A stretch of 64,000 nucleotides of DNA from an uncultured Planktomarina sp. (lineage in GTDB: Bacteria > Pseudomonadota > Alphaproteobacteria > Rhodobacterales > Rhodobacteraceae): contig CAJJBJ010000002.1 of assembly GCA_905182455.1 (NCBI GenBank), positions 372,001 through 436,000 on the forward strand, written 5' to 3'. A program made the position numbers and the translations under genes. Below, piece by piece: positions 14,431-54,997 of this stretch. Every line of letters begins with the position of its first letter. The first letter of the stretch is position 1. The notes beneath the pieces were generated by a model, which made no database searches, was not told where the DNA came from, and worked only from the letters and a program-made list of their open reading frames with translations.

Positions 14431-15825
14431 TTAGATATGGATCGCGCGGTCCCAAGCGTCCAACACGCTTTCATGCATCATCTCAGATAGGGTTGGATGC
14501 GGGAACACCGTTTGCATCAGATCTTCTTCGGTGGTCTCCAATTGACGACCAACAACATAACCTTGGATCAGCTCAGTGACTTCAGCCCCAATCATATGGG
14601 CGCCCAAAAGTTCACCGGTTTTGGCGTCAAATACAGTTTTGACCATGCCTTCCGCTTCGCCCAAAGCAATTGCCTTGCCATTGCCCATAAAGGGGAAACG
14701 TCCCACACGAATCTCATAGCCTGCATCACGCGCTTGAGCTTCAGTATGACCCACACTGGCCACCTGCGGCGTGCAATAGGTGCAGCCAGCAATGCTTTCA
14801 GGTTTGACAGAATGCGGTGAGCCACCAGCTATCAACTCAGCGACCATAACACCCTCGTGGCTGGCTTTATGTGCAAGCCATGGTGCGCCGGCCACGTCCC
14901 CGATTGCATAGACGCCCATAACGCCGGTCCGGCAATAAGCATCTGTGGTGATATGGGTCCGGTCAACATTTACACCCAAGGCTTCCAGCCCTAAATTTTC
15001 AACATTGCCTACAATCCCAACCGCTGAGATCACCGTATCGAAGACCTCTTTGGTGATTTTGCCGACTTGTTCGATATGTGCTGTCACCGATCCCACACCG
15101 CGATCCAGCTTTTTCACCATGGTTTTGGTGCGAATCTTCATGCCTTGTTTTTCAAAAGCTTTCTGCGCGAAGGCCGAAATCTCAGCATCTTCCACAGGCA
15201 TAACCCGGTCCATAACTTCCACCACAGTGGTGTCAGCGCCCAGCGTGTTATAGAAACTGGCAAACTCAATGCCAATCGCACCTGATCCGATGACCAAAAG
15301 CTTTTTCGGCATGCGCGGTGGGGTCAAAGCTGTTTTATAGGTCCAAACCAGATCTCCATCCCCTTCCAAGCCGGGCAGTTCACGGGCTCGGGCACCGGTG
15401 GCGATGATGATATGTTTGGCCGTCAGCGCTTCGGCGCCCTTGGCTGTTTTGACCACGACCTTGCCCGGTGCTGTGATTGTCGCATCGCCCATCAGCGAGG
15501 CCACTTTGTTTTTCTTCAACAAATGCGTCACGCCTCCGTTCAGCTGCTTCGCAATGCCGCGCGAGCGGGCCACAACAGCATCCAAATCATAATCAATATT
15601 TTGCGCCAACAGGCCAAATTCTTTGGCGCGTTGCATCAGATGATAAACTTCCGAAGAGCGCAGCATCGCTTTGGTTGGAATACAGCCCCAGTTGAGGCAT
15701 ATGCCACCCATATGCTCGCGTTCCACAACAATGGTTTTCAATCCCAGTTGCGCTGCACGAATAGCAGCCACGTAGCCACCGGGCCCCGCACCAATAACGA
15801 TCACATCATATGTATTGTCAGCCAT
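14431..15825 (-). CDS. lpdA: Dihydrolipoyl dehydrogenase, PDH-type E3
   Basis: This 464-residue flavoprotein reoxidises dihydrolipoyl groups of 2-oxoacid dehydrogenase complexes. FAD binding is shown by VIGAGPGGYVAAIRAAQLG, the redox disulfide by GGICLNWGCIPTK near residue 40, NAD binding by VIGSGAIGIEFASFY near 180 and the active-site histidine region by HPTLSEMMHE at the end. The CLNWGCIPTK form resembles pyruvate-dehydrogenase-linked E3s, unlike the [10 protein letters not shown] of the second lpd at 53.6 kb. GGAG seven bases ahead supports ATG 15825 over the in-frame GTG just before it. A perfect 18-base palindrome lies 22 bases upstream. Confidence 0.95.
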   Translation of the reverse strand: MADNTYDVIVIGAGPGGYVAAIRAAQLGLKTIVVEREHMGGICLNWGCIPTKAMLRSSEVYHLMQRAKEFGLLAQNIDYDLDAVVARSRGIAKQLNGGVTHLLKKNKVASLMGDATITAPGKVVVKTAKGAEALTAKHIIIATGARARELPGLEGDGDLVWTYKTALTPPRMPKKLLVIGSGAIGIEFASFYNTLGADTTVVEVMDRVMPVEDAEISAFAQKAFEKQGMKIRTKTMVKKLDRGVGSVTAHIEQVGKITKEVFDTVISAVGIVGNVENLGLEALGVNVDRTHITTDAYCRTGVMGVYAIGDVAGAPWLAHKASHEGVMVAELIAGGSPHSVKPESIAGCTYCTPQVASVGHTEAQARDAGYEIRVGRFPFMGNGKAIALGEAEGMVKTVFDAKTGELLGAHMIGAEVTELIQGYVVGRQLETTEEDLMQTVFPHPTLSEMMHESVLDAWDRAIHI

Positions 15826-15846
15826 CACAGGACTCCACTTTATAAT

Positions 15847-15864
15847 TAGTTTAATATTAAACTA
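15847..15864. promoter_or_regulatory. Perfect 18-bp palindrome in lpdA promoter
   Basis: TAGTTTAATATTAAACTA is self-complementary over all 18 bases and sits 22 bases upstream of the lpdA start. Size and symmetry fit a dimeric repressor of MarR-like type; the regulator is not identifiable here. Confidence 0.55.
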
Positions 15865-15936
15865 TAATGCAAACTGGTGCAAATCTAATTTTCGCGAGGT
15901 CCATAACTCTCAAAAAATCGCGGTTTAGGGGCAGGA

Positions 15937-16515
15937 TTATGACGCGGCGATTATGGTTTCGAGCGTGAACCCATAACCGCCAGCTTTATCATAGGCGATT
16001 TCCGGGGCGGTTGCCGGACGGCTCAAAGCATCGTTGCGAGCGGGAAAGCGGCCAAACTTACGGATGATTTCACGATGCGCCTGGGCATGGGGCAACTGTT
16101 GGATTTTACCCTCAGGCAGCCGCGTGAGAATCAACCGCACTGCGCGGTCTTGATCCGTTAGACTTTCAGAATGCATCAAGGGCATGTAGAAAAATTGCCG
16201 TGCAGGCTCATCAATCCTCAGATCCCACCCATTTTGCAACGCCGCTTTAGAGGCGGCCAAGGCCTGTCGATCTGATCCAAAAGAGCGGGCCGTTCCGCGA
16301 AACATATTGCGCGGCATCTGGTCCATCAAAATCAAGTAGGCAAGGGTGCCAGTGGCATAGGTGAGCCATAGCGCATTGGCCCCATTGACCGTGTCCCACC
16401 AAACCTGCTCGAAGCGATCTCGGATCTCTTGATCAAGCCCCTCGCCCGGCACATACCAGCCTTTCGGCCCGATTTCGTCCAGCCAAAAACCTACAACGTC
16501 ATGTACAGTTGTCAT
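15937..16515 (-). CDS. DUF924 family protein
   Basis: The 192-residue protein matches DUF924: an N-terminal VVGFWLDEIGPKGWY, then LILMDQMPRNMFRGTARSFG near residue 75, PLMHSESLTDQDRAV near 112 and HREIIRKFGRFPARN near 146. The family is predicted to be an all-helical, TPR-like fold of unknown function. It has no signal peptide or membrane segment, so a cytoplasmic location is likely. It follows the MFS carrier by 74 bases on the same strand, but no functional link can be shown. Confidence 0.85.
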   Translation of the reverse strand: MTTVHDVVGFWLDEIGPKGWYVPGEGLDQEIRDRFEQVWWDTVNGANALWLTYATGTLAYLILMDQMPRNMFRGTARSFGSDRQALAASKAALQNGWDLRIDEPARQFFYMPLMHSESLTDQDRAVRLILTRLPEGKIQQLPHAQAHREIIRKFGRFPARNDALSRPATAPEIAYDKAGGYGFTLETIIAAS

Positions 16516-53608: not shown

Positions 53609-54997
53609 ATGGCTTCTTATGATGTAATTGTGATCGGCTCCGGCCCCGGCGGCTATGTCAGCGCCATTCGATGTGCGCAATTGGGGCTGAAAACAGCCTG
53701 TGTGGAGGGGCGTGACACCTTGGGTGGCACCTGTTTGAATGTGGGCTGCATCCCATCCAAAGCGCTCTTGCATGCCAGCCATCAGCTGCATGAAGCTCAA
53801 CATAATTTTGCAAAAATGGGCCTGATGGCAGACAATCCGGTGGTCGATTGGACCAAAATGCAGAACTACAAAACTGAGGTGATCGACGGCAACACCAAAG
53901 GCATTGAGTTTTTGTTCAAGAAAAACAAAATTGACTGGATCAAAGGCTGGGCCAGCATTCCTGCCGCAGGTGAGGTCAAAGTCGGTGATGAGACACACAG
54001 TGCCAAACATATCATAATCGCCAGCGGCTCCGAGTCCTCCAGCCTACCAGGCATTGAGGTTGACGAGAAAATTGTCGTCACCTCCACTGGGGCCCTGGCC
54101 TTGGACAAGATCCCCGCCAAAATGGTGGTGATCGGCGCTGGTGTCATTGGGCTTGAGCTGGGTTCAGTCTATGCACGATTGGGCAGTGACGTTGAAGTCA
54201 TCGAGTTTCTGGATGAGATCACCCCCGGCATGGATGCGGAAGTGCAGAAAACCTTTCAACGCATTTTGAAAAAACAAGGCCTCAAGTTCACCATGGGTGC
54301 GGCGGTGCAATCCGTCTCAGTCAAAAAGGCAAAAGCCACGGTCAGCTATCTCAAACGCAAAAAAGATACGCAGCATCAGGTTGAGGCCGATGTGGTGCTT
54401 GTGGCCACCGGGCGCAGGCCCTTCGTTGATGGTTTGGGCCTAGAGGCGCTTGGGGTCACCCTCACAGATCGCGGACAAATCCAAACCGACACCCATTACG
54501 CCACTTCCGTGCCCGGTATTTACGCAATTGGCGACGCCATCACCGGCCCTATGCTGGCCCATAAAGCCGAAGACGAGGGCATGGCCGTCGCTGAAATTTT
54601 AGCCGAACAGGCGGGCCATGTGAATTACGATGTGATCCCCAGTGTGATCTACACCCATCCAGAAGTGGCCAGTGTCGGCCAAACCGAAGAACAATTGAAA
54701 GAGGCTGGTCGCGACTATAAAGTTGGCAAATTTTCCTTCATGGGCAATGGCCGTGCCAAAGCCAATTTCGCCGCTGATGGTTTTGTGAAGATCCTCGCCG
54801 ATACCGCCACAGATCGGATATTGGGCGCGCATATCATCGGGCCAATGGCTGGGGATTTGATCCATGAAGTCTGTGTCGCCATGGAATTTGGCGCTGCAGC
54901 CGAAGATCTGGCCCGCACATGCCACGCCCATCCGACCTATTCCGAGGCAGTACGCGAAGCTGCCCTCGCTTGTGGTTTAGGCGCAATTCATAGCTAA
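53609..54997 (+). CDS. lpdA: Dihydrolipoyl dehydrogenase, OGDH-linked E3
   Basis: This second E3 (462 residues) has [21 protein letters not shown] for FAD, the redox pair in [17 protein letters not shown] near residue 41, [19 protein letters not shown] for NAD and the active-site [15 protein letters not shown] near the end. Its place behind sucAB assigns it to the 2-oxoglutarate complex, in contrast to the CLNWGCIPTK enzyme at 14.4-15.8 kb. AAGGA lies eight bases before the ATG. It ends 27 bases from the convergent GntR gene. Confidence 0.96.

Follow-up and report, generated by a model that had tools for sequence, protein, structure and literature searches.

A conserved palindrome in the Rhodobacteraceae, most likely a gene switch site, precedes genes leading from malate and pyruvate to acetyl-CoA

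The window analysed here is the whole 64-kb stretch of DNA from an uncultured Planktomarina sp., whose family is the Rhodobacteraceae. On its minus strand, positions 14431 to 15825 encode dihydrolipoyl dehydrogenase (lpd; above the TIGR01350 cut-off), the E3 on the pyruvate dehydrogenase (PDH) side, with its ATG at 15825-15823 and an in-frame GTG slightly upstream at 15828. The gene is preceded by the palindrome TAGTTTAATATTAAACTA (15847-15864, assigned to neither strand), whose family form is TRGTTYARNNYTRAACYA. The first-pass annotation had described it as a perfect 18-bp palindrome, which is confirmed by the zero mismatches between its arms, and had placed it 22 bases before the start codon, whereas 21 bases separate it from the ATG. 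A DUF924 gene (15937-16515), also on the minus strand, lies upstream of lpd and gives the context. For contrast, the plus strand carries a second E3 gene (53609-54997) behind sucC, sucD, sucA and sucB (order read from the translations), in agreement with its earlier assignment to the sucC gene run; this second E3 has no copy of the palindrome at ≤3 mismatches.

The 64-kb window contains no perfect 18-bp palindrome other than that at 15847-15864, whose sequence had no second match there when up to 3 mismatches were allowed (100 shuffles gave 0). In first-order Markov sequences that kept the composition of the window, perfect palindromes of 18 bp averaged 0.37 per 64 kb, with a maximum of 2 in 60 runs. 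Because of this expectation, one palindrome of any sequence would by itself be weak evidence and mean little, and the earlier claim that chance is unlikely even in AT-rich DNA fails as it was put. The non-random feature is the recurrence of this particular sequence in the genome, in the family and at lpd loci.

In the window's own genome (2.12 Mb, 95.8% complete), the site was found at ≤3 mismatches in three places, before lpd, a malic enzyme gene and pdhA, with a single match for the backward-read control; relaxing the pattern at other positions yielded no extra site in this genome. The malic-enzyme site (L002) is an exact copy of the palindrome, and the protein encoded behind it has Pfam malic and PTA domains, while the pdhA site (L003), TAGTTTAATGCTAAACTA, has two mismatches at the centre. 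Behind this pdhA come genes interpreted as pdhB and aceF, and lpd is absent from the run; the lpd of the window is therefore its natural E3 partner, which upholds the previous pairing of the gene at 14431-15825 with PDH.

A putative lpd promoter can be placed on the minus strand at 15854-15882, with a -35-like TTGCAC (15882-15877), a 17-base spacer and a -10-like TAATAT (15859-15854) at the centre of the palindrome. A TTG is kept 16-18 bases ahead of the palindrome in 18 lpd promoters among the matches listed, and the malic-enzyme leader of the same genome has the same TTGCAC at the same spacing; it is plausible that TTGCAC, 17 bases and TAATAT constitute a promoter common to lpd and this leader. 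A consensus promoter scan did not report the TTGCAC/TAATAT pair of lpd, and its sole listing was a site on the plus strand.

At ≤2 mismatches the site occurred in 19 of the 41 genomes searched (control, 0/41), namely the own genome, 15 of the 19 others of the genus and three more, and the exact form TAGTTTARNNYTAAACTA was present in 71 of 150 family genomes, with 1/150 for the control. Among the matches listed, 93 unique exact sites remained when duplicates were removed from L001-L110, and 89 of them stood before the same three genes (pdhA, 38; malic enzyme, 33; lpd, 18). The other four of these 93 listed sites (L009, L028, L049 and L078), which are found close to gene ends, within a reading frame or 119 bases ahead of one, look like chance. 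Because the same operator precedes pdhA and malic enzyme in both the own genome and the family, the palindrome marks a regulon of the pyruvate node and not control of E3 alone, and the idea of an operator special to the lpd E3 is not borne out.

Absence from the lpd promoters of close relatives, named at the outset as the result that would speak against such a site, was looked for in the nearest named lpd loci (the best 80 of 578 related stretches), scoring the 14 arm positions over up to 250 bases upstream. The site was kept in 76 of these 80 loci with ≤4 arm positions changed (0 mismatches in 20, 1 in 33, 2 in 17, 3 in 4 and 4 in 2), and in 70 of the 80 with ≤2. The remaining four of the best 80 (L223, L234, L263 and L293) had no site, their best match being 6-8 mismatches off. 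The backward-read control gave 0/80 at ≤2 mismatches, with its best score, 3 mismatches, in 2 of the 80 loci. Within this best 80 of 578, the nearest locus is from a Planktomarina MAG (91% identity), followed by Roseovarius, Salipiger, Ruegeria, Leisingera, Sulfitobacter, Tabrizicola and others. One record, named Nocardioides marinus (L226, JAHVJD010000001.1), carries an lpd and an operator typical of roseobacters (82% identity) and is probably mislabelled or contaminated.

Among the matches listed, 30 of the 33 operator-linked malic enzymes are 50-56% identical to the one of the own genome and three are 79-100% identical, and two groups of malic-enzyme paralogues thus seem to carry the operator. 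The site is found with both groups (L002, L025 and L011 versus the rest), as if it had stayed in place through an exchange of the enzyme.

Outside the window's family, the sole match among the 41 relatives was in G027, of family f4, in which a pair of palindromes, spaced 21 bp apart, lies before an operon encoding an Acg-type oxidoreductase (NF047509) and a MarR protein; no site was found at the pdhA of G027. The same operon with tandem sites was present in 3/3 f4 genomes examined, with the first palindrome occupying the spacer from TTGACA to a TATATT-like -10, and the second directly after it, covering the expected start. When 289 genomes of the class were searched with the pattern, one more oxidoreductase-MarR operon with two palindromes 21 bp apart was found, in G270 (family f101). 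Outside the window's family, the pattern occurred in 7 of the 284 class-sample genomes versus 4 with control matches, which is near background. Four of those seven were oxidoreductase-MarR operons, and two, in G037 and G302, look fortuitous. In the seventh, from another alphaproteobacterial family, TAGTTTAAGGTTAAACTA (L202, G191:C6:76949-76966) has behind it a gene for a short-chain dehydrogenase and one for a different MarR protein. Possible readings of the motif as Lrp-, IclR-, LacI- or CtrA-like were dropped once the MarR operon of G027 was found.

With the f4 MarR protein as the query, each of the first 17 family genomes to be tested yielded a close relative (identity 39-47%, E-value 4e-26 or lower); G162 had two relatives, and G025 and G028 had weak matches only (E 4e-7 or worse). 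The copy of the own genome lies outside the window (G000:C9:101040-101480), between a deaminated-glutathione-amidase-like gene and ubiG. It has the MarR winged helix (PF12802, 45.4 bits with a cut-off of 27; PF01047, 30.3 bits with a cut-off of 24.6), was matched by no GntR model and scores far under the cut-offs of those named MarR models that it matches in NCBIfam, and the nearest solved relatives, for example 8ylf and 2a61, are at E 1e-5. Used as the query in turn, it had a match at E 1e-20 in 131 of the 150 family genomes, usually once per genome and usually between a carbon-nitrogen hydrolase and ubiG. In many genomes of the family, the neighbourhood of this core MarR gene is steady (L124, L114-L128), with a comF-like gene, a glutaredoxin, the deaminated-glutathione-amidase-like hydrolase, MarR and ubiG. 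When 17 MarR loci of the family (L112-L128, L112 being an oxidoreductase-linked paralogue) were scanned for sites of their own, 0/17 had one at ≤2 mismatches, and one locus (L127) had one at 3; this speaks against the core MarR regulating its own gene in the window's family. In the f4 and f101 relatives, by contrast, sites stand before the MarR operon itself. The genome check proposed by the first-pass annotation was a search for the palindrome next to MarR/TetR-type genes; the candidate MarR gene adjoins no site in the own genome.

The exact motif occurred in 70 of the 131 family genomes with the MarR gene versus 1 of the 19 without it (Fisher p = 4e-5). A looser search of these 19 gave weak partial matches in four, the best being 36% identical (G110). 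Seven of the 19 had no PdhA at E 1e-60, two had a distant PdhA only and in one (G112) the locus was cut by a contig end. In the nine assessable genomes lacking MarR, eight had no pdhA site at ≤3 mismatches; these eight include G181 and G134, whose matches at 4 and 5 mismatches may be remnants of a site. The ninth, G140, had a perfect pdhA site and no MarR found, and is the least complete of the nine (92% complete, 590 contigs). Family genomes negative for the exact motif were examined at pdhA for the first 27 of 79 in handle order, of which 24 had this pdhA. Of those 24, 21 carried MarR, and 18 of the 21 had a pdhA site at ≤3 mismatches, the pdhA sites of the other three (G055, G021 and G054) being 4-5 mismatches off with a GTTYA..TRAAC-like core kept; the three without MarR (G060, G048 and G023) had no pdhA site. 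Where the exact motif was missing and the pdhA promoter could be assessed, the site was therefore present at ≤3 mismatches in 18/21 with MarR versus 0/8 without (p = 4e-5).

In a PdhA tree of 70 rows, the eight genomes lacking both MarR and site require six state changes, five of them forced by well-supported branches, and G060 and G077 are each paired with a relative holding a perfect site. On this tree the MarR gene was thus lost at least five independent times in the window's family. In this tree G140 was grouped with the MarR-positive rows despite no MarR having been found, and the MarR status of G009 and G010 was untyped; with these three removed, the site was present at ≤3 mismatches in 53 of 56 MarR-positive rows. 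The Fisher test over all rows used 55/58 versus 1/9; since 38 of the 59 rows grouped as MarR-positive have exact sites and most of them were included for that reason, 18/21 versus 0/8 is the fairer comparison. The repeated joint loss of gene and site is hard to explain unless the MarR protein uses the site. Eight genomes had no PdhA relative at E 1e-60 (G051, G076, G083, G095, G099, G121, G148 and G061), and seven of them also lacked the core MarR, G061 being the one with MarR present and this PdhA absent. Genomes without a PdhA relative may use another type of PDH.

A second, oxidoreductase-linked MarR was found in 18 family genomes (G162 and 17 more). The recognition helix of this paralogue reads PK(T/N)(T/S)M(T/S)H, and that of the core, f4 and f101 proteins T(K/R)GA(M/I)TN. 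None of the 17 readable paralogue leaders (of 18) contained the TTTAA palindrome. Classed by eye, 12 of the 17 had two TRGTNCGATATCGNACYA sites (CGATATCG type), 20 bp apart where both were clear, three were partial (L298, L304 and L310), and two had TGGTTC..GAACCA (L301 and L311). In the four operons whose MarR has the T(K/R)GAMTN helix (three in f4, one in f101), the tandem sites are of the TTTAA type and 21 bp apart. Across the operons of Acg-type oxidoreductase and MarR (L111, L161, L162, L204, L112 and L297-L313), tandem operators lie 20-21 bp apart, and the helix and the operator type covary between the two groups. The MarR tree separates the core proteins from all oxidoreductase-linked proteins; because the TTTAA type occurs on both sides of this split, the change to CGATATCG operators would most simply be derived, having arisen in the family in which the two regulators occur together.

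From these comparisons we consider it probable that the palindrome is the operator of a three-target regulon, comprising pdhA with the PDH genes behind it, the separate PDH-side lpd and malic enzyme, and that the protein acting on it is most likely the MarR encoded near ubiG. The conserved site, the target genes, the joint loss of MarR and site and the match of paralogue helix and operator are computed observations, and the earlier guess of a MarR-type regulator fits the last two as well as the tandem sites at the f4 and f101 MarR operons. Evidence on the other side comprises the perfect pdhA site of G140 with no MarR found, the MarR of G061 with this PdhA absent, the more divergent pdhA sites of G055, G021 and G054, the lack of a site at the pdhA of G027 and near the core MarR gene of the window's family (≤2 mismatches), and the four lpd loci of the best 80 that have no site. 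The MarR protein would bind the site, repress rather than activate, and be released by a metabolite signalling pyruvate supply, for which pyruvate itself is a tentative first guess. At lpd the palindrome lies over the putative -10 and start, and a bound dimer is predicted to occupy both -10 and +1 and so to block RNA polymerase. Malic enzyme and PDH together form the route from C4 acids to acetyl-CoA, and one switch over both therefore makes sense. In the original proposal of dedicated repression of lpd by a dimeric regulator, the dedicated dimeric regulator is very likely correct and repression is what we infer, while the restriction to E3 fails because pdhA and malic enzyme share the operator.

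That the MarR protein binds and activates, or acts both ways, appears unlikely to us: MarR-family activators exist and the direction of control is deduced here, but the palindrome lies over the putative -10 and start of lpd and within the -35/-10 spacer in f4, which are typical positions of a repressor. It is rather improbable that another regulator binds the operator of the same three genes, with the correlation to MarR arising secondarily, from shared loss or from gene context. The deduced nature of MarR binding would leave room for such a protein, as would the examination of joint loss for MarR genes alone and the distance of the MarR gene from all proposed targets in the window's family; yet in two other families tandem copies of this palindrome precede the operon of the MarR itself, the gene has been lost at least five times, and the helix and operator of the paralogue changed together. 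This covariation also argues against the inverted repeat acting as a hairpin of the mRNA leader and not as a DNA operator, which is very improbable. The repeat does lie in a short stretch ahead of the start codon, and any inverted repeat can be drawn as a hairpin, but its arms are A+T-rich and weak, and the first f4 copy lies between -35 and -10, hence upstream of the transcript. A chance palindrome in A+T-rich intergenic DNA, although 0.37 would be expected per 64 kb for any sequence, has a negligible probability, given that the exact sequence and its position before three functionally linked genes are kept in the family.

On balance, we lean slightly towards a wider interpretation of the MarR-operated regulon, in which an undescribed MarR protein would sense pyruvate supply and gate both malate to pyruvate and pyruvate to acetyl-CoA, an unrelated protein thereby taking the place of PdhR. 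It would share a common origin with the oxidoreductase-linked MarR, whose helix and operators would have changed together where both coexist, insulating the two switches. If true, this would name a control point for the entry of carbon from pyruvate and malate into acetyl-CoA in an abundant, largely marine family. The three-target regulon with its sharply defined operator is directly testable in cultured relatives, and the paired paralogues, with two helices and two operator types per cell, would be a natural case of duplicated regulators separating their targets.

In the titles and abstract openings of the literature searched, mostly excluding subscription papers, no description of the motif or of a MarR regulator of PDH in the window's family was found. 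MarR-family repressors have palindromic operators over promoters. The candidate shares the winged helix with them, and a palindrome in the 16-20 bp range on putative promoters, as well as the tandem sites before the MarR operons of f4 and f101, would fit that pattern; unlike them, in the window's family it would control genes of central carbon metabolism that lie at a distance from its own locus. RccR of Pseudomonas is presumably of the RpiR family, a protein family other than that of the MarR candidate. The likeness to RccR, as far as the available part of the source describes it, lies in primary carbon genes tied to the carbon source (PMC5489143). A comparable job in other Proteobacteria is performed by PdhR, described in the available part of its source as a GntR-family, pyruvate-responsive repressor of aceEF-lpdA, and that part does not report PdhR for the window's family (PMC5343134). 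As with PdhR, a dedicated pyruvate-node regulator would act through an operator before PDH genes including lpd; unlike in the PdhR system, the candidate is of the MarR family, malic enzyme is a core target and the operator, as found here, is TAGTTTA-N4-TAAACTA. With operators at pdhA and lpd and a protein that is not of the GntR family, the system would work like PdhR without being a member, and what appears to be new is a MarR-type regulon with an unusual, central set of targets.
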